This document shows positions 18,090 through 36,782 of a stretch of DNA of 64,000 nucleotides, one piece after another. A program made the translations under genes and the position numbers. The notes below the pieces were generated by a model, which saw nothing but the letters and a program-made list of their open reading frames with translations, searched no databases and was not told the origin of the DNA. Origin of the DNA: Halopenitus persicus (GTDB taxonomy: Archaea; Halobacteriota; Halobacteria; Halobacteriales; Haloferacaceae); contig NZ_AP017558.1 in the NCBI RefSeq assembly GCF_002355635.1, forward strand, positions 806,001 to 870,000, given 5' to 3'. Numbering within the stretch: position 1 is the first letter of the stretch; every line of letters begins with the position of its first letter.

Positions 18090-18126
18090 CCCGGTCCGAA
18101 TGCGGTCGAGTTCGCGGGGAGCGCTG

Positions 18127-18390: not shown

Positions 18391-18429
18391 GGCGGCCCCA
18401 GCAGCAATCGACTCAGCCGTCCGTCGTCG

Positions 18430-18879
18430 TTACTCCTCCTCGGCGTCGGTCTCGACCCCGTTTCGCGGCAGCACGATGAGGGGGCGGTCGCTATCGGTTA
18501 CGAGCTTCGTGCGGACGCTCCCCGAGAGGAAATCGAGGATCCGACCGCCCCCGCGCGATCGGAAGGCGATCGCGGTCGCGTCGTGCTCCGCGGCGGCGTC
18601 GTTGATCGTCTCCGCGACGTCGGTCCCGTAGTGGATCTCGGTCTCAAACGGGACGTCGTCGCCCTCTGCGAGGCCGCGCATCGCCTCGAAGGACTGCTCG
18701 GCGATCTCGCGTCGCTGCTCGACGCCGGCCTTGTCGATGCCGCCGCCGGCCTTCTCGATCACGTGGATCACGACGATCTCGGTGTCCGCGTCGAGGTACG
18801 CCGAGAGGGCGTCGTAGGTGCTGACGGCGTCGGCCTCGTTCGCGATCGGGACGAGAATGCGGTCCGTGAGGTCGGTCAT
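18430..18879 (-). CDS. Universal stress protein (UspA family)
   Basis: A 149-residue single-domain USP. The N-terminus DRILVPIANEADAVSTYD is the first strand and loop. The nucleotide-binding glycine pattern near the C-terminus is present in divergent form (SRGGGRILDFLSGSVRTKL), ending in the strand DRPLIVLP. A stress-response role is assumed from the family. It is one of several USP-domain genes in the window. Confidence 0.87.
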   Translation of the reverse strand: MTDLTDRILVPIANEADAVSTYDALSAYLDADTEIVVIHVIEKAGGGIDKAGVEQRREIAEQSFEAMRGLAEGDDVPFETEIHYGTDVAETINDAAAEHDATAIAFRSRGGGRILDFLSGSVRTKLVTDSDRPLIVLPRNGVETDAEEE

Positions 18880-18931
18880 ACCGGTCCCTTCGACCGCGGG
18901 TGGTTTAAGCGTTGTATGGTCCGGCGGGGCG

Positions 18932-19333
18932 TCACACCTCGCTGACCCACACCCGGTAGTCGGCCTCGAGCTCGAAGACGGTCCGGAAGGCGCGCTCGAG
19001 GAAGCCCGCGATGCGGTTGGCGTCCGATCGCGCGGTGATCACGACGTTGGTCCCCTCGACCGACTCGGGGCTCTGCAGCTCGTCGATCCGGAACTCGGGA
19101 TACTCTCCGATCAGGCCCTTCAGCCGCTCGAGCTCGGCGTCCGTGACGTCGAGGACGACCTCGGTTCCCGCCACCTGGATCCACGGCGGGACGTCGTCCT
19201 CGACGGTCGTAGTGTCGCTGTCGGGGTCGACGTCGAAGGTCGCCACCGGGCTCGACCGGTTGCGGTGGGCGGTCACCGCGTCGGCGAACAGCGTGCGCCG
19301 CTCCGTCTCCTCGGCGGCGTCGAATCGGGTCAT
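18932..19333 (-). CDS. Conserved hypothetical protein, 133 residues
   Basis: Start at 19333 (MTRFDAAEETERR). It is a compact acidic alpha/beta protein with the segment WIQVAGTEVVLDVTDAELER and a C-terminal AGFLERAFRTVFELEADYRV. I do not recognise the family. The coding character is convincing: acidic bias, and the sequence composition changes abruptly upstream. It is the last GC-rich gene before the AT-rich island. Confidence 0.7.
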   Translation of the reverse strand: MTRFDAAEETERRTLFADAVTAHRNRSSPVATFDVDPDSDTTTVEDDVPPWIQVAGTEVVLDVTDAELERLKGLIGEYPEFRIDELQSPESVEGTNVVITARSDANRIAGFLERAFRTVFELEADYRVWVSEV

Positions 19334-19925
19334 ACGAAACGGTTTCGCGGCGGGCCTAATAAGGCGGACGGTGAAAGCGAGTGGTATACCGAAAGACAGG
19401 CCCATAATAGAGATATAAAATAAACTATATGAATTCGATAATGGTATGAAAATTATATTTATTAGGAATAATCACAAATGAGTAGTTTTGTGACTTAAAT
19501 CCGCCCGAGCTATCAATCGAATTCGTCGAGATCCAGGCCGGTTCATACAATGGAAATATGTTATGTATTCGTAGTATTGCGGTTAAAACATATGATCACG
19601 TGAATTAAAGAGGTATTAACCCCGATCTTCAGCCAGTTTTTTATATTAAATCCTCAAGCGATATGATGTCGATCCGAATTCAAGTTACACGAAAACACTG
19701 ATGTGGGAAGAGATTCATATATTAAAACATAAAGTATCGAATAAACAATATAAAATGATAATTATCAGATTAAAAATCACAGCACGTTACTGCTCATTGA
19801 CCCGCCTGTCAGTCAGAGGACCCAACCAACGTATACCAAAGATCTCGGCTGAATTCGTTCGCCAATGAATAAGCAATATTGTGCGCATAATAAAAGAATA
19901 AGTAGTCATAAGATCTCCTTGAGAT
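19334..19925. other. AT-rich left edge of the accessory island
   Basis: This is 592 bp with no credible gene. From about 19390 the sequence switches sharply from GC-rich core DNA to AT-rich DNA with many ATAT/TTAT tracts. No tRNA, integrase or clear direct repeat is visible. AT-rich stretches near 19880-19905 could serve the aldehyde dehydrogenase gene that follows. The small inverted repeat ATCTC-CTT-GAGAT directly before its ATG may be chance. Confidence 0.6.
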
Positions 19926-21287
19926 ATGGAAGCGGTTAACCCAGCGACTGGTGAGGTCATCGATTCGTATCAGGAAGGAATGGAGAGCGATATCGAGGCA
20001 GCCATTTCAGCATCCACTCACGCTTTCGACGAGTGGCGAAACACCTCGCTCCGTGAACGGCAGAAACTCCTCGCCAATGCGGCTGACGTACTTCGTGATC
20101 GCCAACGGGAGTTAGCGGAGCTGATGACGCGCGAAATGGGCAAACCGATCACGCAAGCGATGGGTGAGATCGAAAAGTGTGCGTGGGTGTGTGATCATTA
20201 CGCCGAGTTCTCCAGTGCGTATTTGTCGGCGGATAGTCACCCGAGTCCACCCGGTACGACGGTGAAAACGCGATACGATCCGCTTGGGGTTGTATTGGCC
20301 GTAATGCCGTGGAACTACCCGTTTTGGCAGGTCTTTCGTTTCGCTGCACCGAGTCTGACCGCGGGAAACGTTGCACTCCTCAAACATGCCTCCAACGTTC
20401 CTGGATGTGCCCTCGCGATCGCGGACGTATTTCGTGAGGCGGGCTATCCGGAGGACGTCTTCCAAACGCTGCTCATCCCATCGGACCGCGTAGAGACCGT
20501 GCTGAAGGACGATCGTGTTCGTGCCGCAACGCTTACTGGAAGTGGACCGGCAGGTCGAGCGGTCGCATCTACCGCTGGCGAGTCCTTGAAAAAAACCGTG
20601 CTTGAGCTCGGAGGAAGCGATCCGTTCATCGTGCTCGACGATGCTGATCTCGATGACGCAGCAGAAACCGGGGCCTGGGCTCGGAATATGAACGGTGGCC
20701 AGTCCTGTATCGCGGCAAAGCGATTCATCGTTCACGAAGCCGTTTACGATGCGTTCCTTGAAAAGCTCGAATCCCGTATTGAATCACTCGTGATTGGGGA
20801 CCCGATGGATGAGGAGACCGAAATCGGCCCGCAGGCAAGTCAGCATTTGATGGAGGATCTCCATCAGCAAGTCGAGGAGAGCGTGTCTGCAGGTGCAAAT
20901 CTACTCACGGGAGGCCAACCCCTTGATCGGGATGGCGCGTTCTATCCACCCACGATCCTAACCGATATTCCTGCCGAGTGTCCCGCGGATTCAGAGGAGC
21001 TATTCGGGCCGGTCGCATCCGTATTTAAAGTCACGAACGAGCAGGAAGCCGTCGCGAAGGCAAACGAAACTCGATTCGGCCTCGGTGCGTCGATATGGAC
21101 CGAGGATCGTGGCCGAGGTGAACGGATAGCCGCCGAAGTAGATGCCGGCTGTACCTACATCAATCAACTCACCAAATCCGATCCACGTGTTCCCTTTGGC
21201 GGGGTGAAGGACTCGGGGTATGGTCGTGAGCTTTCCGAGGCGGGTATCAAGGAATTCGTCAACCGCAAGACGGTGTGGGTAGAATAG
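19926..21287 (+). CDS. Aldehyde dehydrogenase, succinate-semialdehyde type
   Basis: A 453-residue NAD(P)-dependent aldehyde dehydrogenase of the short form (Sad/GabD-like). It has [22 protein letters not shown], the [13 protein letters not shown] Rossmann motif, the general base in LELGGSDPF and catalytic Cys in [12 protein letters not shown]. It ends [20 protein letters not shown], typical of Sad enzymes. Codon use is less GC-rich than in the core genes. It is oriented away from the other catabolic genes on its right. Substrate is inferred only to subfamily level. Confidence 0.87.
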
Positions 21288-21387
21288 ACGCCGCCGGCGG
21301 AAATCGGCGGTGGCGTAATTCGCCTAGTATGACTTTACTGAATCAGCTACAGTCGTATGTAACAGTCGAAGCTCCAGGATAACGACT

Positions 21388-22521
21388 TCATTCGGGATCG
21401 GCGAAAGTTAACATTCGTTTTGGGTTCTCGACGAGAATTCGTTCGACAGCACTTTCCGAAATTCCGAATTCTCTGCCCGGTTCATCGATCAACAACAACG
21501 GAACCACGTCATTAACGATGTGGAAGTATCCTCGTCCACCGTATTTGGCCAGCTGTGACTTTCGGTGCCGATCGTGTGAAAAGAGGATATGTGATGCATA
21601 GCCTTCAGCAACGAGTTCGGAGATCCATTCCGCTCGATGGAGGTTGGACGGACGCGCATAGTCGCGTTCGATCCAGTCTACGGTGAAGTTCCGTTCTGCT
21701 CCCCATTCGTCATACGCGATGAACCCACCTCGATCGGCTATCTTCTTTTGATACTCGAGTCCGGTCCCCTCAAAAAATGCACGGTCCATATGATCGATCA
21801 CGACACGCTCAGCCGGCAACCCTTCGTCTTCGAGAATGTCGAGTATCTTCAGGCCCCACCTCGAAGAAGGATACGTACCATCACGCCGATGGCTCTTCCC
21901 GTTCGGATGTACCGTCACGGGGGCACCAGTATCGAGGGCTGCGCGCGCGCCGGCTCGTAGTACTTTTTCTTCATCCTCGTGGATCTCACCGGAGACGCCG
22001 AGCTCCCCGATGATTCCAGCACGCACGTCCGTTGAGCCGATTCCGGAGCGAACATCGCTAACGAATTCTTCCCTGATTTCGTCAATGGTTTTCGTAGATA
22101 GCTCCGGCGGATGGCTCGCTTGCGTATAGTATGCCGTCCCATGGATGAGGTTCACTCCAGTTTCCCGCATCACTGCGCGTACCGCCTCGGGATCGCGTCC
22201 GAAATGTTTCGGCGTGACGTCGACTATGGAGTCTCCGCCGTGCCGATAGTACTTTGAGATCTCCTCGATGGCATCATCGAGCGAATCCAGAAATAGTTGT
22301 TCAGGTGCCATATGGAATCCGCCGCCTTGTTGTACAAACCATCGATTCTCAAGGGCTAGCGGCTCCCTCGAGCGCCGCTGATCGATCGGCGATTCGAACT
22401 CGACCTTGTCGGATGTAACCGAAAGGTCGGTAAACAGGTGTTCGTGTGCCATCGTTATCCCGAGTGAATCGGGATCGATCCGACCGTCTACAGTGACGAT
22501 GCTACCAGCATCCTGCCTCAT
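21388..22521 (-). CDS. Phosphotriesterase-family hydrolase (lactonase-like)
   Basis: A 377-residue amidohydrolase-superfamily protein of the phosphotriesterase branch. The N-terminal metal motif is GITMAHEHLFTDL (HxH); VDVTPKHFGRDP, PVTVHPNG, VVIDHMD and LFSHDRHRKS supply the remaining ligand regions. Members act as lactonases or aryl-phosphotriesterases. The ATG at 22521 is chosen over a TTG ten codons upstream because a TATA-like GATATG lies about 25 nt before it. It is probably cotranscribed with the dapA-like and ALDH genes upstream. Confidence 0.83.
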   Translation of the reverse strand: MRQDAGSIVTVDGRIDPDSLGITMAHEHLFTDLSVTSDKVEFESPIDQRRSREPLALENRWFVQQGGGFHMAPEQLFLDSLDDAIEEISKYYRHGGDSIVDVTPKHFGRDPEAVRAVMRETGVNLIHGTAYYTQASHPPELSTKTIDEIREEFVSDVRSGIGSTDVRAGIIGELGVSGEIHEDEEKVLRAGARAALDTGAPVTVHPNGKSHRRDGTYPSSRWGLKILDILEDEGLPAERVVIDHMDRAFFEGTGLEYQKKIADRGGFIAYDEWGAERNFTVDWIERDYARPSNLHRAEWISELVAEGYASHILFSHDRHRKSQLAKYGGRGYFHIVNDVVPLLLIDEPGREFGISESAVERILVENPKRMLTFADPE

Positions 22522-22616
22522 ACTAGCGAGATTAGTGACATCACATATCAACCTATTGGTAGCGGAAGATCTGTGCAGAATCGAGTTTCGATATGTAGTC
22601 GAACTGGATCAACCGA

Positions 22617-23513
22617 TTAGGAAGTGATCCCCTCCAGTGAGGGAATCTTCTCTCGCGCGAGCCACCGTTCGATCGCGGCACATCCCTCGTCACTAACCGG
22701 CGAATATGGAGGTCGAGGAGTACCGATCGGAACGCCGGAAAGGTTCGTTGCAGCTTTGACTGCAGACATCAGCCCGACGTCCACCTCTGCCGGCGGGAAA
22801 TCGACGAAGGATCGCTGTGCTTCGGTTGCAGCTTCTAGCTCCTCGTTTTTGAACGCTTCGTACACCCTCATTGCCGGACTACTGGCCGGAGCGGGAATTA
22901 CCGCACCCTGACCTCCAGCAGCCAATACGGGCAACAGGACATCCATCGTTCCGAATACTGACGCCAATCCTGCGTTATCGATGTTCTCAATGAGCCACGC
23001 GATCTTCTTCCAGTTGCGGGACGTTTCTTTGATATACTCGACGTTCTCATACCGAGCAATCCGTCGCATCGTCTCGGTGGAGAGATCGACGGTGACCGAT
23101 GGGTTGTTGTACAACAAGATCGGTAGATCCGTTGCTTCCGAAATGGATTCGTAGTACCGTTCTATGGCGGCATCACTCGGGGGGAGTCCCCACGGCGGCA
23201 TCGCGAGGATACCGTCAGCACCAATCGATTCCGCGTGTGCCGTGAGCTCGATAGCGACGCTCGTTGAGGGATGGGAGACGCCGGCCAGAACCGGACGCTC
23301 ATCGGACGCGTCGATCGTAGCTTCGATCAGGTCCTTCCGCTCGGACACCGTCAACGCAACCGTTTCTTGTACACCGGTTCCCGCGGCGATGAGGCCGTGG
23401 CACCCACATAATTGCGTGAATGCAACCGACTTCGGAACCAGATCCGTCTTGACGACACCATCCTCGATCGGAGTTAACACTGGCGAGAGGATCCCACTGA
23501 TCGTGTCTTCCAT
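22617..23513 (-). CDS. DapA/NAL-family aldolase or lyase
   Basis: A 298-residue class I TIM-barrel lyase of the dihydrodipicolinate synthase / N-acetylneuraminate lyase family. It begins SGILSPVLTPIEDGVV and has the GTGVQETVALTVSERKDLIEA loop, the LPILLYNNPS tyrosine strand and the Schiff-base lysine in YIKETSRNW. The ATG at 23513 is favoured by a TATA element (ATTATATAT) about 30 nt upstream. Its pairing with an aldehyde dehydrogenase suggests retro-aldol cleavage of a keto acid followed by aldehyde oxidation, rather than lysine synthesis. Confidence 0.85.
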   Translation of the reverse strand: MEDTISGILSPVLTPIEDGVVKTDLVPKSVAFTQLCGCHGLIAAGTGVQETVALTVSERKDLIEATIDASDERPVLAGVSHPSTSVAIELTAHAESIGADGILAMPPWGLPPSDAAIERYYESISEATDLPILLYNNPSVTVDLSTETMRRIARYENVEYIKETSRNWKKIAWLIENIDNAGLASVFGTMDVLLPVLAAGGQGAVIPAPASSPAMRVYEAFKNEELEAATEAQRSFVDFPPAEVDVGLMSAVKAATNLSGVPIGTPRPPYSPVSDEGCAAIERWLAREKIPSLEGITS

Positions 23514-23630
23514 TACGATCCCACATTTAGAGGAATGATATATAATATTATCGGATACCACGATAACGAACACGAGACGAACCACCCGAGCCGTCGATTT
23601 CACCAATCAATTCGATCCGATCACAACAGC

Positions 23631-25139
23631 TTACGTGTCCATATTGAAGGGATCGGAAACCTCCCCAGCGAGATCAATCCAGACGCTCTTCGTCTGAAGG
23701 TATTCATCGAGACCCTGTTGACCTTGTTCCCTTCCAAGGCCGCTGTCTTTGTATCCACCCAACGGAGAGCGGTAAGACATCACGCGGTATTCGTTAATGC
23801 AGACGGTGCCAGCATCGATCGCGTCGGCCAACCGGTGGGCTCGACGAATGTCTTCCGTCCACACGCCAGCGGCGAGGCCGTAATCAGTGTCGTTCGCTAA
23901 CTGGACGGCTTCCTCCTCATCCGAGAATCGGATAACGGATGCCACGGGTCCGAAGATCTCCTCCTGAGCAACCCTCATTTCGCTGTCGACATCCGTAAGA
24001 ATGGTCGGTTCAATGAAGAGGTCGCCGGCGAGTCTCTGCGGTTGGCTGCCACCGAACGCGATCTCTGCCCCCTCCGAACGGCCGAGATCGATATATTCCT
24101 TGACCTTCTTCCATTGGTCCGAGAATGCGATCGGGCCCATCTCCGTTTCAGGATCCAAGGGGTCACCGAGTTTGATCTCGCTCGTCCGTGAAACGAACCG
24201 TTCGATGAACTCATCATAAATCTCCTCGGAGACAAGGACGCGCGAGCCGGCAACACACGTCTGTCCACTTGCTGCAAATATCCCTTTGATAACCCCGTTC
24301 ACAGCGTTATCCAGGTTTGCGTCAGCGAAGACGATGTTGGGACTTTTTCCACCGAGCTCAAGCGAAACCGGAACGAGCCGATCACCAGCCGTTTGGCCGA
24401 TCTGTCGCCCGACTGCGGTACTCCCGGTAAACGAGAGTTTGTTGACGCTGTCGTGTTCGGTCAACGCTTTCCCCGTGCTTGCGGCGCCCGTAATAACGTT
24501 GTACGCACCCTTTGGCAGGTCCGTCTCCTCATAGATGAGTTCGGCAAACCGAAGGGCGCTTACGGGAGTCTGTTCGCTAGGTTTGTGAACGAACGTGTTA
24601 CCTGCCGCGAGTGCCGGAGCCAGTTTGAGACTTAGTAACAGCAACGGGGAGTTCCAAGGGGTGATCGCTCCAACGACACCGTAGGGTTCCCGTTTGGTAT
24701 AATTGAACATCTGGCCGTTTTTGTTCTCCACTGGAATCGTTTTGCCCTCAAGCGTATCACAGAGACTCCCATAGTACCGGTACCACTCACCGAGTCCTTC
24801 GATCTGTGCCTCCATCTCGCGAATGAGTTTTCCGTTCTGGAGGGTCTCGAGACGTCCGAGCTCTTCGTAGTGTTGATCGAGGACGTCCGCAATTTGGTGG
24901 AGAATATCCCGTCGGGTGCTCGGAAGCGTATCCTTCCACGTATTCTCAAACGTATTTCGTGCCGTCTTGACTGCGGCATCAACGTCCTCGGCATCGGCTT
25001 GTGGAACCGTTGCCCACCGTTCACCAGTATATGGAAACGTGACGGATATTCGGTCCTCGGAGACGGCTTCGCGGTACTCACCATCGATGAGTACGTCGTA
25101 CTCATTCACACTATCAACAACAGCGTTGGAATCTGGCAT
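23631..25139 (-). CDS. Aldehyde dehydrogenase, betaine-aldehyde-like
   Basis: A 502-residue NAD(P)-dependent aldehyde dehydrogenase with ITPWNSPLLLLSLKLAPALAAG, FTGSTAVGRQIGQ, LELGGKSPNIVF, catalytic Cys in FAASGQTCVAGSRV and a final SPLGGYKDSGLGREQGQQG. ATG at 25139 (MPDSNAVVDS); a TATA-like AATATTAATAA about 30 nt upstream supports it, and the earlier in-frame start is not needed. It is first in the leftward group with the dapA-like and phosphotriesterase-like genes. The aldehyde substrate is unknown. Confidence 0.87.
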   Translation of the reverse strand: MPDSNAVVDSVNEYDVLIDGEYREAVSEDRISVTFPYTGERWATVPQADAEDVDAAVKTARNTFENTWKDTLPSTRRDILHQIADVLDQHYEELGRLETLQNGKLIREMEAQIEGLGEWYRYYGSLCDTLEGKTIPVENKNGQMFNYTKREPYGVVGAITPWNSPLLLLSLKLAPALAAGNTFVHKPSEQTPVSALRFAELIYEETDLPKGAYNVITGAASTGKALTEHDSVNKLSFTGSTAVGRQIGQTAGDRLVPVSLELGGKSPNIVFADANLDNAVNGVIKGIFAASGQTCVAGSRVLVSEEIYDEFIERFVSRTSEIKLGDPLDPETEMGPIAFSDQWKKVKEYIDLGRSEGAEIAFGGSQPQRLAGDLFIEPTILTDVDSEMRVAQEEIFGPVASVIRFSDEEEAVQLANDTDYGLAAGVWTEDIRRAHRLADAIDAGTVCINEYRVMSYRSPLGGYKDSGLGREQGQQGLDEYLQTKSVWIDLAGEVSDPFNMDT

Positions 25140-25636
25140 ACGAACGAATCTTTCTTGTATGGGCTTATTAATATTGGCACTTTTCAATTCATAGACTAAA
25201 ATCGGTTCGTAAACACACCCGGATACCCGATATGCAGATCACGGAAACGGTTCTCCATAGGATGGCGACTCCCAGAGTAGTTCGGTGTCAACGAACAGAG
25301 ATCACGGAGAAACAAAATTACAGAAGTAACCTTGTAATGGATAGTGAGAGCATACGGAAGAAGAGGGCTATGCGGATTCGAGCGTAGGACAGAATGGCCG
25401 ATGACAGCGAAACCCGCAGATGCAACAGCGTTCGTCAACACCGAACAAATGGGCGTCGACGATTGCCATCGATAAGTTGCAAGATAATTCGAGACCGTTT
25501 TTACGCGAATGAGGCAAAACGTTCGGTAACAACGAACTAGATCAGCTATGTGTTTCGTCATAAGGATCGGAGCCAACCCACAGCCCGGAGCACATCTGGG
25601 AAAGATATATATAATGAGATGAAGAAACGTCGATCG
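25140..25636. other. Divergent spacer between the leftward and rightward island groups
   Basis: This is 497 bp without a convincing gene. Promoter-like AT-rich elements sit at both ends: AATATTAATAA (minus strand) near 25165-25175 and GATATATATAATG at 25605-25617 (plus strand). The middle is of intermediate GC. A leftward open frame across it lacks any family features and the halophile acidic bias, so it is not called. A diverged non-coding remnant is possible. Confidence 0.5.
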
Positions 25637-27343
25637 ATGGTTCGAGACGAGCAACCCTACCGAATGGATTCATTACGGGATCCGTCAGAACTGATGCAGC
25701 CGGAGCGTCTGGGTGCCCTTCAGCAAACGCCCCTGAGCTTTACCCGCATTCTGATCAAACGAATGGTCGAAGAGGAATGGAACATCGAACTTCAGGAGAT
25801 CTCAGTCGACGAAAACGGAAACGGACGGGCTAGATACAGCATTACGACACCAACTCACGAGTTCGCATTCCCGATCTATTCTCAAAAGATCAGTGAGGAG
25901 AAGAAGACGGATCGAATCACCGCGGACACCTGGGATATGTGGGGATTCCTTTGTGAAGGTGATCCGGATCCGGAATTCGTGGACTGGCAGTTTGAGGAGC
26001 TACCGAACGTCCGAACGGGACGAGCGACTCCTGACGATGTACTAATTTGGACACGGGCGAACCGGAGTTCCAGGTTCTTCGGTCACATCGTTGAATCACT
26101 GGAGGAAGGCCACCAACCCGACATCGACTTCCTAGCAAAAGGCGGCTACCTGATCCGCTCCTCCGGATACTATGGGAACGGATTGAATGGAACGAGGGCT
26201 TTCGCAGCGTTAGGGGATGATCATCCGCTCAATGAGCCGTATTTGGCTCAAATGCTCGCCGCCTATATGTGGCGGATCTTCGGCTACGACCTTGCGGATG
26301 CCATTGCAAAGGAGCGAAGCGACGATGCTGCTGACCTAGATTACGAAATTCGAAAGTATCTCGGAACAGGCAACTCATCCGGAATGGGAGTCGCGATTTT
26401 TGCGGTTAATCACCCCAAACTGATCCACACGTGGATGCGCACGAGGGAGATCGCGGTCGCACGCGTGAAGACCATTACGCCAACCAACGACGAGATTCGG
26501 AAGTTGGTCGATGTGCTGCACAGAGCAGAAGTGTGGTTCGCTGAGGACGAGAGCGACTCAAAGGAGTTTTTCTTGGCGAAATCAAGGATATCCGACGGCC
26601 TAAACAGCATCAGAAAAAAGGTGGAGCGTACCAGTCACGTCGACTCCTGGAAGGAACTCACTCGGTGGGCGGATCAGACGTTCGAACCGGAAACCAACGA
26701 AGTACTCTATTCTCTGCTGTTGGACGTCCATCCAACCGTGTGTGAGGGGCTTCAGGACGCACTCATCACATCGGAGAAATGTGATATTCAACCTGAGATG
26801 ACCGTCGAACGCCTTCGGAACATCATCAATACGGACTATGCCTGGGCGCTCGATATCGACATGTCCGCACCGGGAGCCAACGATATCTTCTGGTACCGTT
26901 CGGTCAAGGGTGAGGAGCCCCGGTTAGGAAGAAAGGGCGAAAGTACTGCCGAAGAGTACGCTCTTCCCGTAGATATCGCGCTTCAAGTACAACAGCTCGT
27001 CGAGGCTTTACAAACGTTTGATGCGTCGACGACCGTCGCTGAGGTGCTTCTCGACCATCCCGAACACAGGTATATCATCGAACGTATTCAGTCGGTGCAC
27101 GGACTGGCATACGCCGAAATCCGGGGCAATGTACTGGATTCCGACTTCATCCCGCTCCACTTGGTTGCTCTCGTCAAGTCGTTTTGGGGAATTCAGAAGG
27201 CACATCCGGCTAACAAAGGATGGGTTAAAGGGACCTTCTTTCAGGGGGCACCACTACCAGAGGACATCCGAAACGGACAGCACTCCTACTGGCTCTATCC
27301 GCCAAGACCAAGCCAAAAGACGAGTTCCGAGGTGACACAATGA
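25637..27343 (+). CDS. Unrecognised 568-residue protein, partner of an LDH2-like protein
   Basis: I do not recognise this family. It is soluble, mostly helical, with no signal peptide. Conspicuous motifs are RANRSSRFF (residues 140-148), GNGLNGTRAF (180-189), KYLGTGNSSGMG (240-251) and NHPKLIHTWMR (258-268). Their Gly/Asn/Arg/Ser density suggests an active or ligand-binding site. The ATG at 25637 (MVRDEQPYRM) is chosen because the TATA element at 25606-25613 is about 27 nt upstream. Its stop overlaps the ATG of the next gene (ATGA), so the two proteins are coupled and probably act together. Confidence 0.8.
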   Translation: MVRDEQPYRMDSLRDPSELMQPERLGALQQTPLSFTRILIKRMVEEEWNIELQEISVDENGNGRARYSITTPTHEFAFPIYSQKISEEKKTDRITADTWDMWGFLCEGDPDPEFVDWQFEELPNVRTGRATPDDVLIWTRANRSSRFFGHIVESLEEGHQPDIDFLAKGGYLIRSSGYYGNGLNGTRAFAALGDDHPLNEPYLAQMLAAYMWRIFGYDLADAIAKERSDDAADLDYEIRKYLGTGNSSGMGVAIFAVNHPKLIHTWMRTREIAVARVKTITPTNDEIRKLVDVLHRAEVWFAEDESDSKEFFLAKSRISDGLNSIRKKVERTSHVDSWKELTRWADQTFEPETNEVLYSLLLDVHPTVCEGLQDALITSEKCDIQPEMTVERLRNIINTDYAWALDIDMSAPGANDIFWYRSVKGEEPRLGRKGESTAEEYALPVDIALQVQQLVEALQTFDASTTVAEVLLDHPEHRYIIERIQSVHGLAYAEIRGNVLDSDFIPLHLVALVKSFWGIQKAHPANKGWVKGTFFQGAPLPEDIRNGQHSYWLYPPRPSQKTSSEVTQ

Positions 27344-28293
27344 GATTGAGTTCACGAGAGGTGTTCCAGCTTGCGGACCGCTGTCTCGCCTCGGCTGGCC
27401 TTTCGAGAGGCGTCTCGAAGACGAACGCGGAATCAGTTTGGTGGACAGAACTGTACAAAGAACGTGGGCTCACCTCGCTTCACAAGATCATCAACGAAAC
27501 AGCCGAGTTAGATCAAGGGCGTATTTCGATCGAACGGCAAAGCTCGAACTTCGCCATACTCAATGAAGGCGGTCAGCCGTGTATCGTGTCAAGCACGCCG
27601 GCGCTAGATCTCAGCTGTTCGAAAGCGAAGGAATCGGGACTGGGGATTACGTACATTCCGTTCACGGAGCAGGACAGTAGCTTTGCCACGATCGGACATA
27701 CTGCGTATAACGCCGCAAGTCGCGGGCTCATCTCCATCGTGCTGACGAACTCCCCGGACGGATCGAGAAGCTTCCTCGCAGTCCCTGGTGAAGAGCAGCC
27801 GATAGTTGCAGAGACGAAACTGCAAGGGCCGTCCGAAAGCTATCGAAAACTCCGGAGCATCATCACGAACGGGATATATGATCGACGTCATAGCCCATTA
27901 GTGCAGGCCTTTTTCGATCAGAGCCAACACACCGACCCGACAACAACGGACGCGGATACGCTTCAGCGACTGTTGGCGGGTGCAATACGGCCAGCTTCGG
28001 GAAATAATGATGACTCCGAATCAGGGTTCGTCACGATCTGTTATAGCCCGACGCACCCGCAAAACGCCACGGGAATGCAGCGAGTGGCACACGAGTTCGT
28101 GAGGGAAAATACGGATCAATTGACGACCGTATATGAGCCCCCAACGATCAACGAAAAGAGGCGGAAATTGATTAACGAGGGAGTTGTGATTGAGAGGGAC
28201 GTCTGGGAGGACCTATTCGAATGGAGCAATGGTATATTTTCGCCGGACTCCGTCGGTTCGGAAACCGGTGCTGGTCCCGGTTTGGAACGGTGA
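27340..28293 (+). CDS. Divergent LDH2-family (malate/lactate dehydrogenase-like) protein
   Basis: A 317-residue protein whose pattern follows the LDH2/malate-L-sulfolactate dehydrogenase family: an N-terminal helical pair, then LGITYIPFTE...TAYNAASRGLISIVLTNSP (residues 101-139). At the places where active members carry DSHG and NHFG, I see GLTSLHK (43-49) and EQDSSFATIGH (110-120), so the usual catalytic His positions look replaced. It may be a non-oxidoreductase derivative or a regulatory subunit. It is translationally coupled to the unknown 568-residue protein. The family call is by eye and moderate. Confidence 0.6.
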   Translation: MRLSSREVFQLADRCLASAGLSRGVSKTNAESVWWTELYKERGLTSLHKIINETAELDQGRISIERQSSNFAILNEGGQPCIVSSTPALDLSCSKAKESGLGITYIPFTEQDSSFATIGHTAYNAASRGLISIVLTNSPDGSRSFLAVPGEEQPIVAETKLQGPSESYRKLRSIITNGIYDRRHSPLVQAFFDQSQHTDPTTTDADTLQRLLAGAIRPASGNNDDSESGFVTICYSPTHPQNATGMQRVAHEFVRENTDQLTTVYEPPTINEKRRKLINEGVVIERDVWEDLFEWSNGIFSPDSVGSETGAGPGLER

Positions 28294-28678
28294 GAATCGT
28301 TGTGTCGTAGTGAATAGTGATGCGACCTGCCGATCTCACGGGGGTGGGAGAATTAGCTCGAACCACCGATCTTACAGTGTGGATCAACGCCAGTGATGCT
28401 CAAACATAACGCGCCCGTCCGGATAAAAGACTAATCTGCAGTACTGGCAAATTTCGTGCGCAGTAATGAAGCGATAGTTGGGAGATGCCGTACGAGTGCT
28501 GAAGTGGTACTAACATGTCTCTGAGATTATTTCAATGGTCACCCCCCAATACTATCGAACCGATGTGTGATTCCGTGTAGTCGTAACTCAACATCGATTC
28601 ACCACGGTATAATGTGGTGAGCTACCCTTGGATTCTGGGATAATTATTTATACCTCCACTATATATGTGGAGGTGCGG
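28294..28678. other. AT-rich spacer with the BCCT promoter
   Basis: This is 385 bp without a gene. The left part is of mixed composition with no recognisable remnant. The right end contains the BCCT promoter: TTATTTATAC at 28643-28652 forms the TATA region, followed immediately by a perfect palindrome at 28652-28674. Confidence 0.55.
28652..28674. promoter_or_regulatory. Palindromic operator candidate at the BCCT gene start
   Basis: Perfect 8-bp arms ACCTCCAC (28652-28659) and GTGGAGGT (28667-28674) are separated by TATATAT. The element lies between the TATA region and the ATG at 28679, so a bound protein would block initiation. An identical half-site ACCTCCAC recurs at 30678-30685 upstream of the cysteine hydrolase gene. 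The neighbouring IclR regulator is the obvious candidate ligand; a stem-loop at the mRNA start is the alternative. Confidence 0.6.
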
Positions 28679-30316
28679 ATGGTTAGCACAACATACGCAC
28701 TTGGGTTAGAGAATAGCACTAGATCAGAGAAAGTGGTGTTTATATTATCTGCTAGCTTTTCACTTGCACTGGCGATAGGAGGCATCCTTTATCCGGAGAT
28801 CGTTAGACAAACGTTGTCAGATCTGTTCAATTATGTCGTGACGTATTTCAATTGGTGGTTTATAGCTCTGAGCCTCATTCTCGTTATATTTTTTGTGGGG
28901 CTGATGATTTCGAAATATGGCCGTCTCCGGTTGGGTGGGGAAGAAGCGGACGTTGAGTTCGGTTGGTTCTCTTGGCTTTCGATGATCTTCACAGTCGGTT
29001 ATTCGAGTTCGGTGTTATTCTATGGTGTTGCAGAACCGATTGCTATTGTTAACAACCCACCAGATACACTACCAACCTATGGAGAACCAATTGAGGTCGT
29101 TGCCCTATCATATATGTTCATACATGATATTATGCCTGGCCTCATTGCCTGGTATCTTCCGTTTGGAATCGCATTTGGGCTGATCGCCTGGGGTAAGGGA
29201 ACTTGGAAGATCAGTACGTTACTCGAACCAATTCTCGATCGAGATCGATATAGCACCGTCTTCTCTATTGTGGATCTACTCACACTTATTGCGATCGTTG
29301 GTGGAGTTGCTACTGGACTAGGATTCATAAGTAGCCAGATATCGTCCATCATAGGGATGGTGTATGGGATTCATTCGCAACTTCTAATAACATTAGTTTT
29401 CATTGCTATCGCTCTGATATTCTTACTAGATGTGATGGCTGGCCTGGAAAACGGCATTCGAAACGCCGCTCGACTGGCCGTCATTATGAACACGTTGCTA
29501 ATTGGTATTCTGGTCGTCGTTGGACCGAAATTATTCATCGCCGAGCTAGGGCTCGATGCAACGGGTTTTTGGCTGAATAATATGCCGCGTCTGATGACAT
29601 ACACCGGGTCGACAAGCACGAGTCTCTGGTCAAACTATTGGACTGGCTTCTGGTGGGCTTGGTGGGCCGCTTGGGGGATCTTCGTGGGTAGCTTCGTTGC
29701 ACGAGTTTCAAAAGGTAGAACGATCCGCGAAGTCTTCCTGGGGTTAGGCATTGCACCGACCGTATTCTTACTGATCCAGCACTCCGTCCTTGCGGGATGG
29801 GCGTTGCATCCGAACTACATTAATGAAATCACAGCAGCGTATCTAGAACAGGGGCAAGCTGCAGCACTAAGTACCCTCATTACAGTCGCACCCTATTCTA
29901 ATCTCATCGGTGTCTTAGTCTTAATCGCGTTTGTGAGTTATATACTTACGTCTCTTGATTCAGCCGTCTATATGCTTGCAGCAATTAACACGGGTGAGCA
30001 AGAACCAAATCAACGGAACCGTGCCGTCTGGGGAGTCCTCCTGATCAGTATTGGAATTATGACGACCTATCTCGGAGGTGGAGCAGGTGTCTTACAGTCC
30101 TTGTCTACATCACTTGCACTACCATTCACGGTGCTATACCTAGTCGTGTTGGTTAGCATCTATGTGGTAGTGAAAAATAGATACCATAATAATTATGTTA
30201 CTATTAGTGATTTGCTCGATCAAAGAAAGGCTACCGTCGAACCAGTACAGTCTGAAGGAGGGCGGAAGGATCAACCGAAACCAGTTGCTGATGGTGAAGG
30301 TGGAGAATCAAAATAG
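28679..30316 (+). CDS. BCCT-family transporter (betaine/choline/carnitine type)
   Basis: A 545-residue membrane protein with about 12 transmembrane segments. The BCCT signature is clear (FWWAWWAAWGIFVGSFVARV followed by SKGRTIREVF), as is the conserved GYSSSVLFYGVAEP region. The tail is hydrophilic and charged. These carriers import quaternary amines such as glycine betaine, choline or carnitine with Na+ or H+. Start at 28679 (MVSTTYALG); the in-frame extension upstream would cross the promoter palindrome. In this setting it more likely imports the pathway substrate than a compatible solute. Confidence 0.88.
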   Translation: MVSTTYALGLENSTRSEKVVFILSASFSLALAIGGILYPEIVRQTLSDLFNYVVTYFNWWFIALSLILVIFFVGLMISKYGRLRLGGEEADVEFGWFSWLSMIFTVGYSSSVLFYGVAEPIAIVNNPPDTLPTYGEPIEVVALSYMFIHDIMPGLIAWYLPFGIAFGLIAWGKGTWKISTLLEPILDRDRYSTVFSIVDLLTLIAIVGGVATGLGFISSQISSIIGMVYGIHSQLLITLVFIAIALIFLLDVMAGLENGIRNAARLAVIMNTLLIGILVVVGPKLFIAELGLDATGFWLNNMPRLMTYTGSTSTSLWSNYWTGFWWAWWAAWGIFVGSFVARVSKGRTIREVFLGLGIAPTVFLLIQHSVLAGWALHPNYINEITAAYLEQGQAAALSTLITVAPYSNLIGVLVLIAFVSYILTSLDSAVYMLAAINTGEQEPNQRNRAVWGVLLISIGIMTTYLGGGAGVLQSLSTSLALPFTVLYLVVLVSIYVVVKNRYHNNYVTISDLLDQRKATVEPVQSEGGRKDQPKPVADGEGGESK

Positions 30317-30375
30317 CGCTCCGAAATTTCACTAGACGGAACAACTACCACTCCGTTATTTCGTAGAAAAAGACG

Positions 30376-30384
30376 AGTTTTTTA
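30376..30384 (+). terminator. T-tract terminator after the BCCT gene
   Basis: GAGTTTTTTA lies about 60 nt past the BCCT stop codon in an AT-rich context. Archaeal intrinsic termination needs only such a U-tract; no strong stem precedes it. Confidence 0.4.
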
Positions 30385-30736
30385 TATCTTCACAATTACG
30401 TATCATTACTCCTTTCACCGTCGCGAAGACTCGCTACCGCGTCGAGGCTAAAACCACTTCCTCGAAAGGATAAAGTACGATATTTCCGGCGGCTACTTGA
30501 CCAACTCAAAGAAATGGAACATACGGATGACCTCTAGGTTACCAGGAAAGCGTCGTCAGTCTAGAGGTTCTTGCGGTGGCCGCGGTCACGATACCAAGCC
30601 TTCCACGATGCACTCCGCGAATACGGTATCTAATCGAGGATCAAACCCGTAAATCGTTCCGGATATGCACGTAAGCACCTCCACAATATTCTTATACTTC
30701 CAATAGCCTTATCAGATACTAATTTAATTATGTGAT
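30385..30736. other. Spacer with possible decayed coding remnant
   Basis: This is about 350 bp with no intact gene. One frame from about 30421 reads SRRLATASRLKPLPRKDKVR and continues with a KE-rich helix to a stop near 30538. Further short open stretches follow, broken by stops. It resembles a degraded gene fragment, but I cannot assign it. The right end carries the half-site ACCTCCAC (30678-30685) and a TATA-like TTCTTATAC. Confidence 0.35.
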
Positions 30737-31315
30737 ATGCGCTTTGACCCGACAAAGACTGCCCTTGTGGTAGTGGATATGCAGAATGGATTCGCCAAAC
30801 CAGATGGGTGTCTGTATGATGCTTCAAGCAACAACGCGATCGATAACATATCTGAATTAATAGAACTAATGCGGGAGGCCAATGCCGAAATCATCTTTAC
30901 TCGAGACATCCATCCACCAGAACAGTTCAAGCAATCATATTCCTATGATGAATCCACCCGTTGGGGAGACTATATTGTAGAGAACAGTTGGGACGCAAAC
31001 ATAGTCGATGAATTCGAGATACACGACGACGATCATATCGTCGATAAATACACGTATGATGCTTTCAACGAGACTGGATTGGAGGCCTTCCTATCAACAC
31101 ACGGTCTTACTGACTTAATTTTCTGTGGTACTCAAGCAAGTATTTGCGTACTCCATACCGCAAGAAGCGCCGCGCTTCTTGATTTCCGATCCGTTATCGT
31201 ATCCGATGCAGTCGGCTACAGATCGACGAAATGGCGGGATTTTGCATTAGAACATTTTAGCCTCGCATTCGGGGAAACAATCACTCGTGAGAGTGTTGCA
31301 TTCACTCAACAATAA
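30737..31315 (+). CDS. Isochorismatase-fold cysteine hydrolase (island copy)
   Basis: A 192-residue cysteine hydrolase with the catalytic triad Asp14 (VVVDMQNGF), Lys104 (DKYTYDAF) and Cys137 (GTQASICVLH). The FTRDIHPPEQF loop resembles the metal-binding region of nicotinamidases but without the full DxHxxH. It aligns without gaps over at least the first 140 residues with the core paralogue at 59476-60048, though its codon use is AT-rich. In this island it may hydrolyse an amide or carbamoyl intermediate rather than nicotinamide (inference). Confidence 0.83.
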   Translation: MRFDPTKTALVVVDMQNGFAKPDGCLYDASSNNAIDNISELIELMREANAEIIFTRDIHPPEQFKQSYSYDESTRWGDYIVENSWDANIVDEFEIHDDDHIVDKYTYDAFNETGLEAFLSTHGLTDLIFCGTQASICVLHTARSAALLDFRSVIVSDAVGYRSTKWRDFALEHFSLAFGETITRESVAFTQQ

Positions 31316-31447
31316 CTTAATTACGTCGTGAAAATCCGATCTAATGATGATTTGATGTTTTCGGCGTCTTAATCGTGTATTCAATAATATGATTGAGTGA
31401 CATTAATTATAAATAATTCACACAAATTGTATTGCTGAGTCAAGGAT

Positions 31448-32212
31448 CTAATAAACCAAATTTAATCCGATGTCATCGGCAGCTGCACGCAACCGATCCA
31501 ATAACTCCCCCTCACAGCGCTCCTTATCGACCCGATAAGCCGGACCGGCAACTGCGAGTGCCCCCCGAACCGTGTCTTGAGAAATGAGAGGCACAGCGAC
31601 GGCGTTCATTTCTCGAATGCCTTCCCCGAGGTTCAATGCGTATCCCTGGTCGCGAGCTTGGTTCAGCTCCTCCGTGAGTTCTTCAGGGTCGGTGATCGAG
31701 TTTTCCGTTTGTTTTGGTAGACCAGATTCCTCAATGATTTCAGTCGTCTTCTCATCCGGAAGGTGAGCAAGAATAACCTTCCCGCCGGAGTTCACGTGCA
31801 TATGCTCCCATGATCCAATAAGCGCATTCACGTTGATTTCGTCATTGGGATCGCGACCGTCCAAGTACATCAATCGACCATTTTCGTGGGTCATTAACCA
31901 AGAGGATTCACCGGTGTCCGCCGCAATTTGGTTGAGGACGGGAAAGGCAGCCGAATAAACATCTCGTTCGATACGTGTGTATTGACCATACCTAAACAGT
32001 TCTAAGCCGAGGTGGTATTTTCCGTTGCGTTTTACAATAAAGCCGTGAGACTGCATTGTTTTTAGATGGCTATGAACCGAACTCTTTGCTAAATTCAATT
32101 TGTTTGCTAGTGTAGTAACGCCGATACCGTTTGCGTCACGTACCTCCTCGATGATCGCTAAGAGCGTCTCATCGGACTTCACCAGACGATCGGTAGTTGA
32201 ATCCGAATTCAT
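31448..32212 (-). CDS. IclR-family transcriptional regulator (island)
   Basis: A 254-residue regulator. An N-terminal winged helix (residues 10-75: GVTTLANKLNLAKSSVHSHL) is followed by the IclR effector domain with GGKVILAHLPDEKTTEI and a C-terminal GALAVAGPAYR strand. IclR proteins sense small catabolites. It is convergent with the cysteine hydrolase and is the natural regulator of the AT-rich island genes. Its leader is AT-rich with a TATA-like TTTATTA about 50 nt upstream of the ATG. It has a paralogue next door at 32697. Confidence 0.9.
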   Translation of the reverse strand: MNSDSTTDRLVKSDETLLAIIEEVRDANGIGVTTLANKLNLAKSSVHSHLKTMQSHGFIVKRNGKYHLGLELFRYGQYTRIERDVYSAAFPVLNQIAADTGESSWLMTHENGRLMYLDGRDPNDEINVNALIGSWEHMHVNSGGKVILAHLPDEKTTEIIEESGLPKQTENSITDPEELTEELNQARDQGYALNLGEGIREMNAVAVPLISQDTVRGALAVAGPAYRVDKERCEGELLDRLRAAADDIGLNLVY

Positions 32213-32696
32213 ATATTATTCATGACTATGGAACGTACTAACAGTTACGAGAATCCCCCTAATAAATATATGAAATAATATATTTTACGTATCAAACAGG
32301 AATAGTATATGAATATAGGTCGTTTCGTTGGATCTCCCCACGATCCGTAGTAGCATTCATCGCGGGGAATAGGACTCGAATCCGAACTAGTGATGGTGAC
32401 TATTCTCAGATCACCTATATAAACATCATAATTATAAACTGTGTATTGATATTATATGACAACGAACTTATGAGACAAAGTCGTTTAGAACTGCTGCGGA
32501 GATCACGCGAGATCCGAACAAAAACGCGGATGATCGAACACCAACTGATCCGATCCAAGTTCTCCAAGTTTCACAACGCATATTTATGTCAGATGGATTT
32601 GGAGAACGGCGGTAGCAGGTATGTTTCGGCGATCGCTCCGAACTATGAATATTTGGTAATGACAAAGACTAAGCGTCTCGAGAGAGATGCGGTACC
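32213..32696. other. Divergent spacer between the two IclR genes; right edge of the AT-rich island
   Basis: This is 484 bp without a convincing gene. Composition is AT-rich to about 32460, intermediate to 32640, then GC-rich. A short open frame from 32446 has no recognisable features. The right end carries the 15-bp motif TTTGGTAATGACAAA (32652-32666) and ACTAAG as a weak TATA element for the gene at 32697. Confidence 0.55.
32652..32666. promoter_or_regulatory. Candidate IclR operator, copy 1
   Basis: TTTGGTAATGACAAA has TTTG/CAAA arms and sits 31-45 nt before the ATG of the IclR gene, next to the expected TATA position. It matches the copy upstream of the carboxylase operon (33654-33668) at 14 of 15 positions. 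Autoregulation is inferred. Confidence 0.6.
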
Positions 32697-33491
32697 ATGG
32701 CACGGGACGCCGGAAAACGAACCATCCAATCGGTCGATCGGGGATGTGAGCTCCTGGAGGCCCTCCGCCGGAACGGGCCGTCGACGATCTCGGAGCTGGC
32801 GTCCGACTCGGAGCTGTCGGCGGGCAGCGTCCACACGTACCTCTCGACGCTGCGGGACCACGGTTTCGTGGACAAGGACGGAACGGAGTACCGGCTCGGC
32901 TCGATGTTCATTCCCTTCGGCATTCGAGCCCGGAACCGATCGACGCTGTACGCGGCCTCGAGGACGATCATCCAGGAACTCGCGCTCGAAACGGGCGGTT
33001 GCGTTCACCTGCAGACCGAGTACGATAACCGGCTCCTCATCCTGGAGGAGGTATACGGGGAGAACGCCATCGGCAAGGACTTCCACATCGAGAAACGTGG
33101 CCGGCTCCAGCGACACGTCAACTGTACTGCGGGCGGAAAGTCCATACTCGCGTATCTGCCCGAGTCGCGGGTCCACGAGATCCTCGACGATCATGGGCTC
33201 CCCTCGCGGACCTCCCGGACGATCACGGACCGGGAGCGGCTGCTGGAGGAGCTGGAGACGGTTCGGGACCGCGGCTACGCGCTCAACGACCAGGAACACA
33301 TGCCGGGCATCCGAGCGGTGGGCGCCCCCATCCTGCACGACGAGGACGGGACAGTGCTCGGGGCCGTCAGCGTCTCGGGGTCGGCCGCGAGCTGGACCGG
33401 CGACCGGTTCGAGCGGACGCTCCCCGCGGCGGTCACGGAGGCGGCCAACGACATCGAGATACGGATCCATTCACGGGAGCGCGAGGTGTGA
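32697..33491 (+). CDS. IclR-family regulator of the carboxylase operon
   Basis: A 264-residue IclR regulator. The winged helix occupies residues 8-70 (GPSTISELASDSELSAGSVH) and the effector domain follows (CTAGGKSILAYLPESRVHEI, then GAPILHDEDGTVLGAVSVSG). It is GC-rich, unlike the IclR gene to its left. It lies directly upstream of the hyuA/hyuB-type operon on the same strand and shares a 15-bp motif with that operon's promoter region. It probably activates or represses in response to a ketone-derived effector. Confidence 0.92.
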   Translation: MARDAGKRTIQSVDRGCELLEALRRNGPSTISELASDSELSAGSVHTYLSTLRDHGFVDKDGTEYRLGSMFIPFGIRARNRSTLYAASRTIIQELALETGGCVHLQTEYDNRLLILEEVYGENAIGKDFHIEKRGRLQRHVNCTAGGKSILAYLPESRVHEILDDHGLPSRTSRTITDRERLLEELETVRDRGYALNDQEHMPGIRAVGAPILHDEDGTVLGAVSVSGSAASWTGDRFERTLPAAVTEAANDIEIRIHSREREV

Positions 33492-33790
33492 ACTCACCGC
33501 CTGCCCGATCGGTTTCGGATTCGTCAATGTGAAATCCGGAGACGCTGTCGCGACCACTCGGCCGTGACGACGTCAAACTGACACGTATATAGCTGTAATA
33601 TCCCTGCCGATCGGAACCAAAGAAGCGGCGACGTGCCGCCCTCGTCGAGGTCGTTTGGCAATGACAAACTCCGGGGCGCCGTCGAAACGCCGTCCGGACT
33701 CCACGAGCCGGTGGTCGGGGGCGGCGATCGAGTGTTCAGTGTTGACTCCCCCAAAATATTTATATAGATAGTGTACAATGGGTCGGTCGC
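33492..33790. other. Control region of the carboxylase operon
   Basis: This is 299 bp without a gene. It contains the second TTTGGYAATGACAAA motif (33654-33668) and a strong TATA element TTTATATA at 33759-33766, about 27 nt before the ATG at 33791, so the operon mRNA is probably leaderless. The motif lies about 90 bp upstream of the TATA element, a position more typical of activation. Confidence 0.65.
33654..33668. promoter_or_regulatory. Candidate IclR operator, copy 2
   Basis: TTTGGCAATGACAAA, flanked by G and C to give GTTTG...CAAAC arms. It differs from the copy at 32652-32666 only at one position (C for T). It is located about 120 nt upstream of the first carboxylase gene. Confidence 0.6.
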
Positions 33791-35809
33791 ATGGTAGAGG
33801 ATGACTATTACGTGAGCATCGATACCGGCGGGACCTTCACCGACGGCTACGTGTCGTCTCCGGACGGATCGACGACGGTCAAGGTCCCGACGACGGACCA
33901 CGACCTCACGGTGTGTTTCCGCAACTGCATCGACAAGGCGGCGGCCAAGCTCGACAAGCCGACCGAGGAGTTCCTCGTCGACACGGACGTCATCCGGTTC
34001 TCGACGACGATCGGGACGAACACGATCATCGAACGGTCGGGCCCGAAGATCGGGCTCATCGCGACCGCCGGCGAGGAGGACGACCTGTTCAGCGCCGAGG
34101 ACGCGGACGAGGGACTGATCGCGGGCGATGACCTCGTGATCGGCGTCGAGGAGCGGACCGACGCGGACGGCGAGGTGGTCGACCCCGTCGACGCCGACGA
34201 GGTACAGGCGGCCGCCAAGACCCTGATGAACAGGGGCGCGAAGCTCCTGCTCATCAGCTTCGCCAACTCGTTTCACGACGAGACGAACGAGGAGCGGGCG
34301 CGCACGGTCATCGAGACCGAGTATCCGCCCCACTACCTCGGTCCCAACCAGGTGCTGACCGCCAACGAGGTCAGCAGCCGGCCGGGATATCGAACGCGAA
34401 CGTACACGGCCCTGGTCAACGCGTACGTGCACCGGCCGATGGCCCGGTCGCTTTATAAGGCGGAGGACGACGCCCGAAACAGCGGCTACTCGAACCCGCT
34501 GCTCATCGGCCAGTCCACCGGCGGCGTCGCCGGCGTCTCCAAGACCGTCGCGTTACACACCTACAACTCCGGCCCGGTCGCGGGGGTGCTCGGGGCCGAC
34601 GCGTTCCGGGAGCTGTACGACCTGGACTCGGTGATGAGCGCCGACATGGGCGGCACGAGCATCGACCTGGGAACGATCGTCGACGGCGAGCTCGAGCGAA
34701 ACCTTCTGCCGGAGGTCGCGGACATGCCGGTCCACGTCCCGATGATCGACGTCCACACGGCGGGCGCCGGCGGCGGAAGCGTCGCCTCGGTGAGCGACGG
34801 GGAGCTCTCGGTCGGCCCCGAAAGCGCCGGCGCGGAGCCGGGCCCGGCGTGTTACGACCTCGGCGGATTCCAGCCGACGACGACGGACGCGGACGTCGCG
34901 CTGGGCTACATCGACCCGGACTACTTCCTCGGCGGGGACCAGCAGCTCAACGCGGACCGGGCCGAGGAGGCGCTCGAACGGCAGGTCGCCGACCCGCTCG
35001 GCGTCTCGGTCGCGGAGGCCGCGCTCCAGGTCAGACGGCGCGTCGATCGGAACATCGCCGACAGCATCGAATCGCAGCTGGCCGAGCGCGGCGAGGACCC
35101 GGCGGACGTCACCCTGATCGCCTACGGGGGCGCGGGGCCGACCCACTGCTGTACCTTCGCCGAGGCGGCCGGCATCAACCGCGTCATCACCGCCCCCGCG
35201 GCGGCCGAGTTCAGCGCCTTCGGCGGAGCGACCCTGGACGTCGAACACCGCTACTCGGAGGCGCTCGGCGAAACCGTCGTGGGCGACGTCCCCTCCGTCG
35301 ACGAGAAGGCGTTCGATCGAACCGTCGAGCGGCTGGAGGCGGAGGCGATCCAGGACATGGCCGGGGAGGGGTTCGACGCGGACGACGTCGCGCTCCAAAC
35401 GTCGATCCTGGCGCGTCTCGGCGACGAGACCCGCGAGGTCGACGTGCCGTCCCGGCTCGCGGGACCGGACGATCTGGCCCCCGTGATCGACGCGTTCGAC
35501 GCGGACCCGGAGGACGAGATCGACCTCGACACGCTGGTGTTGACCGCCGTCGGGCCCGTCGCCACCGAGGACCTGGACCGCCACGATCTCGGGGACGCCG
35601 ACCCCGGCGACGCCCGAAAGGGGTCCCGCGAGGCGTACTGGCCCGTCGACGGCTGGGTCGAAACCGACGTCTACCAGCGTGAGGACCTCGCGCCCGGCAA
35701 CGTCGTCGAGGGACGAGCACTGATCGAGGCGACCGACACGACCTACGTCGTCCCGGACGGCTGGACGTACACGATCGACGAATACGCAAACGGGATCATC
35801 GAACGATGA
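33791..35809 (+). CDS. HyuA-type subunit 1 of an acetophenone-carboxylase-like complex
   Basis: A 672-residue hydantoinase A/oxoprolinase-family protein. The N-terminal ASKHA ATP-binding motif is SIDTGGTFTDGYV (Asp11). Further motifs are FSTTIGTNTIIER, GQSTGGVAG, DMGGTSIDLG and HTAGAGGGSVASV, and the C-terminal half is the all-beta HyuA domain. In acetone and acetophenone carboxylases this subunit phosphorylates the ketone enolate or bicarbonate using ATP. It is the first gene of a tightly packed operon and overlaps the next gene (ATGA). A hydantoinase role is the alternative, but the gamma subunit in the operon favours a carboxylase. Confidence 0.85.
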   Translation: MVEDDYYVSIDTGGTFTDGYVSSPDGSTTVKVPTTDHDLTVCFRNCIDKAAAKLDKPTEEFLVDTDVIRFSTTIGTNTIIERSGPKIGLIATAGEEDDLFSAEDADEGLIAGDDLVIGVEERTDADGEVVDPVDADEVQAAAKTLMNRGAKLLLISFANSFHDETNEERARTVIETEYPPHYLGPNQVLTANEVSSRPGYRTRTYTALVNAYVHRPMARSLYKAEDDARNSGYSNPLLIGQSTGGVAGVSKTVALHTYNSGPVAGVLGADAFRELYDLDSVMSADMGGTSIDLGTIVDGELERNLLPEVADMPVHVPMIDVHTAGAGGGSVASVSDGELSVGPESAGAEPGPACYDLGGFQPTTTDADVALGYIDPDYFLGGDQQLNADRAEEALERQVADPLGVSVAEAALQVRRRVDRNIADSIESQLAERGEDPADVTLIAYGGAGPTHCCTFAEAAGINRVITAPAAAEFSAFGGATLDVEHRYSEALGETVVGDVPSVDEKAFDRTVERLEAEAIQDMAGEGFDADDVALQTSILARLGDETREVDVPSRLAGPDDLAPVIDAFDADPEDEIDLDTLVLTAVGPVATEDLDRHDLGDADPGDARKGSREAYWPVDGWVETDVYQREDLAPGNVVEGRALIEATDTTYVVPDGWTYTIDEYANGIIER

Positions 35810-36765: not shown

Positions 36766-36782
36766 GAGACGCAAGAGAAACG

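Follow-up and report, generated by a model that had tools for sequence, protein, structure and literature searches.

An unassigned 568-residue protein and its LDH2-derived partner in catabolic gene clusters of haloarchaea and proteobacteria

Closest described systems and the Halopenitus persicus locus

The LDH2/MDH2 oxidoreductases (Pfam PF02615), among them YiaK, AllD, HcxB and sulfolactate dehydrogenase, and the family DUF3726 (PF12525) are the described proteins closest to one product of the gene pair considered here. Searching the literature for DUF3726, for PF12525 and for the locus tags expected for the pair in S. meliloti, which we take to be SMb20379-20387, returned nothing on function. 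On the pathway side, sarcosine-oxidase-type four-subunit enzymes are of the same kind as N-methylglutamate dehydrogenase (Mgd), and a marine-bacterial operon for homarine (N-methylpicolinate), homABCDER, with five structural genes and a regulator, was reportedly described by Ferrer-Gonzalez and colleagues in 2026. Participation of Mgd in homarine catabolism is stated in a passage of PMC13390433 (ref. 55 there, Ferrer-Gonzalez et al. 2026, doi 10.1038/s41564-026-02313-7), and homarine is rapidly drawn down by R. pomeroyi (PMC12817926).

The window, the whole stretch of 64,000 nucleotides of Halopenitus persicus DNA that was analysed, holds two reading frames joined by a stop/start overlap, which an earlier note on this DNA had described and which the sequence bears out, together with the flanking aldehyde dehydrogenases, DHDPS-type aldolase and BCCT transporter (Table 1). 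We call the first product X568 and the second the partner. The whole catabolic cluster lies inside a low-G+C stretch (46-59%; about 18-34 kb of the window, 18000-34000) between flanks of 63-74%, and no tRNA marking an insertion site was found in the window. This island, taken with the patchy distribution given below, fits a recent acquisition of the cluster. The low sequence identity between the BCCT transporter and that of the otherwise orthologous Natrinema cluster suggests that the transporter may have been swapped. IS6-family transposases flank the Natrinema plasmid cluster (L015:3029-3664 and 24244-24921), consistent with mobility. Just outside the island stand hydantoinase/oxoprolinase-type genes (HyuA- and HyuB-like, 33791-41441), and genes similar to them are also neighbours of X568 in Natrinema and Sinorhizobium RAC02; the downstream hydantoinase genes were dropped as members of the system on account of their position outside the low-G+C stretch.

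Table 1. Features of the gene cluster, with positions counted from the first letter of the window
Feature	Position	Strand	Basis
Second aldehyde dehydrogenase (SSADH-like)	19926..21287	+	conserved in the window's clade
Phosphotriesterase-family metal hydrolase	21388..22551	-	in the cluster where the M19 dipeptidase is missing
DHDPS-family lyase/aldolase	22617..23606	-	in 4/4 loci of the window's clade
Cluster aldehyde dehydrogenase	23631..25187	-	79% identity to the Natrinema copy
X568, 568 aa, putative catalytic subunit, no known family	25637..27343	+	ORF call; Pfam, NCBIfam and PDB searches; 26-sequence alignment
ATGA stop/start overlap joining X568 and partner	27340..27343	+	overlapping or abutting junction in 25/26 loci
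Pseudo-LDH2 partner, 317 aa, archaeal form of DUF3726, putative non-catalytic subunit	27340..28293	+	LDH2 profile homology, motif loss, GAG tail
BCCT betaine/carnitine/choline-type transporter	28628..30316	+	29% identity to the Natrinema BCCT
Isochorismatase-family hydrolase, possible cluster member	30737..31315	+	family assignment
IclR regulator	31448..32212	-	73% identity to the Natrinema cluster's IclR

Distribution, pairing and gene neighbourhoods

X568 is present in 10 of 391 sampled Halobacteria species, or 11 of 392 in an overlapping order-level sample, and is missing from the two other species of the window's genus examined. A plasmid collection yielded 168 records at about 30-78% identity, mainly from Sinorhizobium and Phaeobacter and also from Aminobacter, Ensifer, Neorhizobium, Shinella, Mesorhizobium, Vibrio, Pseudomonas and Natrinema; viral contigs scanned with the X568 profile gave no relative. 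The X568 tree resolves three main groups that match three operon types, namely a marine/Shinella/Pseudomonas/Vibrio group (class A), a rhizobial group (class B) and a haloarchaeal group (class C). A 98/98 branch sets the archaea apart; placement of the root and of the long Mesorhizobium branch is unsure. One copy in Phaeobacter inhibens, whose plasmid has two X568 places, stands beside DMSP demethylation genes (L016:17864-23304). DMSP catabolism was dropped as the pathway, since dmd genes adjoin this copy only.

A survey of neighbourhoods, as the earlier note had proposed, finds the pair recurring in roughly a dozen sampled haloarchaeal species and in rhizobia, roseobacters, Pseudomonas and Vibrio. 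At the 26 loci examined (11 in haloarchaea, 15 in proteobacteria) both genes are always present, and the junction is of the overlapping or abutting ATGA/TGATG type everywhere except in Neorhizobium. In that locus (Neorhizobium galegae, L036:12001-14428) the C-terminus of X568 is altered and overlaps the partner by ~60 bases, possibly through a frameshift. The distance matrices of the two proteins correlate at r=0.954 over the 26 loci, a value reached by 0 of 2000 permutations, and at 0.91 within archaea and 0.93 within bacteria. Direct support for the pairing is therefore at hand, and the two genes very probably form a coupled unit. The earlier note had read the ATGA overlap as implying a complex; of this the coupling stands, and the complex itself is something we infer, as suggested by a junction and synteny kept from archaea to proteobacteria and by co-divergence (r=0.95).

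The operon partners are likewise directly supported. Within 12 kb of X568, most of the 26 loci carry an aldehyde dehydrogenase and a transporter, the latter of BCCT, glycine-betaine ABC or spermidine/putrescine-type ABC kind, and 21 carry a hydrolase of the M19 dipeptidase family. The class A order is LysR, ALDH, M19, (BCCT), X568, DUF3726, plus a true Ldh in most; the class B order is IclR, X568, partner, M19, ABC transporter, to which several loci add an aminotransferase, an SSADH and RidA. In P. porticola and Shinella the operon has four-subunit genes of the sarcosine-oxidase type next to it; NCBIfam places these only in the soxA/soxB subfamily and does not tell Mgd from sarcosine oxidase. 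A formyltetrahydrofolate deformylase gene stands beside some class A operons. Genome-wide searches found no genuine LDH2 in 5 of the 11 X568-bearing haloarchaea, and their pathway therefore does not depend on one.

The hydrolase varies within the haloarchaea. M19 is single-copy and always beside X568 in 7/7 genomes (L023-L029), where it may act as the hydrolase of the X568 pathway rather than as a peptidase. Genome-wide searches of the window's clade found M19 in none of four genomes, and all four have genes of the phosphotriesterase and DHDPS families near X568, the Natrinema phosphotriesterase gene being partial as it runs off the end of the stretch analysed. Because the M19 and phosphotriesterase-family hydrolases are both metal-dependent TIM-barrel enzymes of the amidohydrolase type, a replacement of one by the other is plausible, and, judging from this one clade of four genomes, the phosphotriesterase-family gene probably took the place of M19.

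The two proteins

First, X568 falls into no recognised family, as the earlier note had supposed. The single sequence matches no Pfam family at E<=10, no NCBIfam family above noise and nothing in the PDB, and the 26-sequence family profile likewise finds nothing in the PDB. Scanned one by one, the 26 members give isolated chance Pfam matches, with no Pfam family in more than one member, and no NCBIfam family at E<=0.01. The family itself is directly supported by an alignment of 26 archaeal and bacterial sequences in which 37 of 657 columns are invariant, many of them Arg or Gly. The three motifs singled out earlier prove conserved, each holding residues invariant in 26/26 sequences: N142 and S144 in RANRSSRFF, G182 and G185 in GNGLNGTRAF, and G243, G245, N246 and G251 in KYLGTGNSSGMG. 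The AlphaFold model of X568 is poor (pLDDT 43 with 3 input sequences), and a structural search with it gave no match. A fumarase/aspartase-like lyase, an idea taken from the GNSSGMG loop, was dropped, as profile and structure gave it no support.

Second, the partner is a genuine LDH2 relative by fold and descent. Its match to Pfam Ldh_2 is confined to residues 6-143 at 33.3 bits, below the gathering cut-off of 38.8. Profile-profile alignment (hhalign) joins the archaeal partner (A5) to LDH2 at E=1.5e-9 over 283 columns, which is nearly end to end, and to DUF3726 at E=1.5e-13 and 98% probability, and joins DUF3726 to LDH2 at E=6.3e-7; among the controls the best permuted E was ~0.02, and reversed or unrelated-family profiles gave 0.1 or worse. 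AlphaFold models built from three sequences were poor, and the partner's was the only one with usable fold signal: searched with Foldseek at low confidence, it returned LDH2 enzymes as all of its top 12 matches. For the bacterial partner, hhalign gives a match to the N-terminal half of LDH2, and hmmsearch with the joint profile adds a C-terminal match to YiaK that is weaker; this form is shortened to about 190-250 aa. It is annotated or scored as DUF3726 in most bacteria; 15 of the 26 partners match PF12525 at E<=5, and the window's partner has no match to that HMM at E<=10. The archaeal form shares with DUF3726 the overlap with the 3′ end of X568 and the C-terminal GAG tail, and differs from it in being longer and in keeping more LDH2 sequence. 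DUF3726 thus looks like an LDH2 that has been pared down, a reduction that has gone less far in the archaeal form.

The structural glycines of YiaK (G20, G45, G105, G131, G318) are largely kept in the archaeal partners of the joint alignment, whereas the residues of catalysis are not. The columns of His44 (SHG) and His116 (NHxG) hold R/S/C/T and S/T/G in all 11 archaeal partners, so that the missing DSHG and NHFG histidines of the earlier note are borne out. Asp172 (YiaK numbering) is absent from the same 11, and no partner, archaeal or bacterial, retains the NAD(P)H-binding Gly155-Thr-Asn-Pro (GTNP) or K225-G226, which are substituted or deleted. Over all 26 partners the LDH2 catalytic residues are gone, apart from a single isolated His44 in one bacterial sequence. 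This loss is directly supported, and on these alignments every sampled member of the DUF3726 family is without an LDH2 active site; the partner, taken earlier for an unusual LDH2, is better described as the archaeal form of DUF3726. A tail of the form S-x-x-S-x-x-GAG, with invariant Ala-Gly, lies past the end of YiaK and sets the partner further apart from the LDH2/MDH2 enzymes.

Proposed subunit roles and a possible route

We lean slightly towards the reading that X568 and the pseudo-LDH2 together form one heteromeric enzyme catalysing the first step in the catabolism of an imported betaine-like nitrogen compound. X568 would hold the active site; the partner, a former LDH2 reductase whose redox site is lost, would now serve as a structural or substrate-binding subunit. 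Two other divisions of labour have to be weighed. It is possible, if unlikely, that the pair is an enzyme in which the partner, as a neofunctionalised LDH2 fold, has itself become catalytic in a new way and X568 is the scaffold: the partner is kept everywhere and carries the conserved tail, but it is far less conserved, with 2 of its 378 alignment columns invariant beside 37 of 657 for X568, its bacterial forms are cut short, and the catalytic burden seems to sit on X568. We also give little credence to the pair being an accessory of the pathway rather than an enzyme, serving the transporter or hydrolase as, for instance, a chaperone, maturation factor or solute sensor. Inspection of the invariant X568 columns found no recognisable cofactor or metal motif, which, like the lack of a family match, would suit such a role; yet most archaeal loci have no other evident enzyme of first attack among the families tested (hydrolase, ALDH, transporter), and the invariant charged and aromatic residues of X568 (R93, D100, R129, R174, R213, R270, E271, W403, W419, Y420, E427, R429) look, from their conservation, like an active site more than a scaffold. 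A partner that still works as a normal LDH2 dehydrogenase, with motifs that have diverged, is highly improbable and was dropped, given that its LDH2 fold and weak Ldh_2 match are set against the alignment, in which both histidines, GTNP, D172 and KG are missing in 11/11 archaeal partners, and against the separate genuine LDH2 gene of most class A bacterial operons.

With X568 as the catalytic subunit, a quaternary or N-methylated betaine-like compound would be imported and attacked first by X568. Hydrolysis of a cyclic or N-acyl intermediate by a metal hydrolase would follow; this enzyme would be M19 in most loci and, in the window's clade, probably the phosphotriesterase-family one. The semialdehyde so formed would be oxidised by an aldehyde dehydrogenase. 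The transporter type, the sox-type genes and the formyltetrahydrofolate deformylase suggest two products, one bearing an N-methyl group and the other a one-carbon compound such as formate. A scheme in which the marine bacterial class converts homarine to N-methylglutamate, losing carbon 6 of the ring, would fit; the sox-type genes next to class A operons could equally be read as ordinary sarcosine oxidase. In the window, homarine or a compound related to it may be the substrate. It is unlikely that one substrate serves all three operon classes, as transporter and accessory genes differ between them.

The class A (marine) operon and the homarine operon reported in 2026 may be one and the same. 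Set against the five structural genes and regulator reported for the latter, class A likewise has five, ALDH, M19, X568, DUF3726 and Ldh, with a LysR regulator, and sox/mgd-like genes adjoin two of its loci; the archaeal clusters are unlike it in having no adjacent Ldh and in their IclR regulators, as is the window's clade in having no M19. The earlier note's suggestion of a new catabolic enzyme therefore holds insofar as a conserved, uncharacterised pair stands in a catabolic setting, and its word "undescribed" may be too strong, considering that the marine class may be the homarine operon.

A wider proposal is tentative and rather doubtful: that X568 founds a new enzyme superfamily, has no classical cofactor motif, acts by activating or opening an N-methylated (pyridinium-type) carboxylate, needs a defunct-LDH2 subunit, and has spread to the haloarchaea, where one clade changed the metal hydrolase of the second step. 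If the reading of the pair as one heteromeric enzyme is right, it would give the Pfam family DUF3726 a function-bearing context and would provide a case of a dehydrogenase fold recycled as the non-redox subunit of another enzyme. Betaine-type (possibly homarine) degradation would then be a route that hypersaline archaea share with marine bacteria and rhizobia, and, with X568 and DUF3726 genes named in tractable organisms (S. meliloti pSymB, Phaeobacter), the function would be directly testable.
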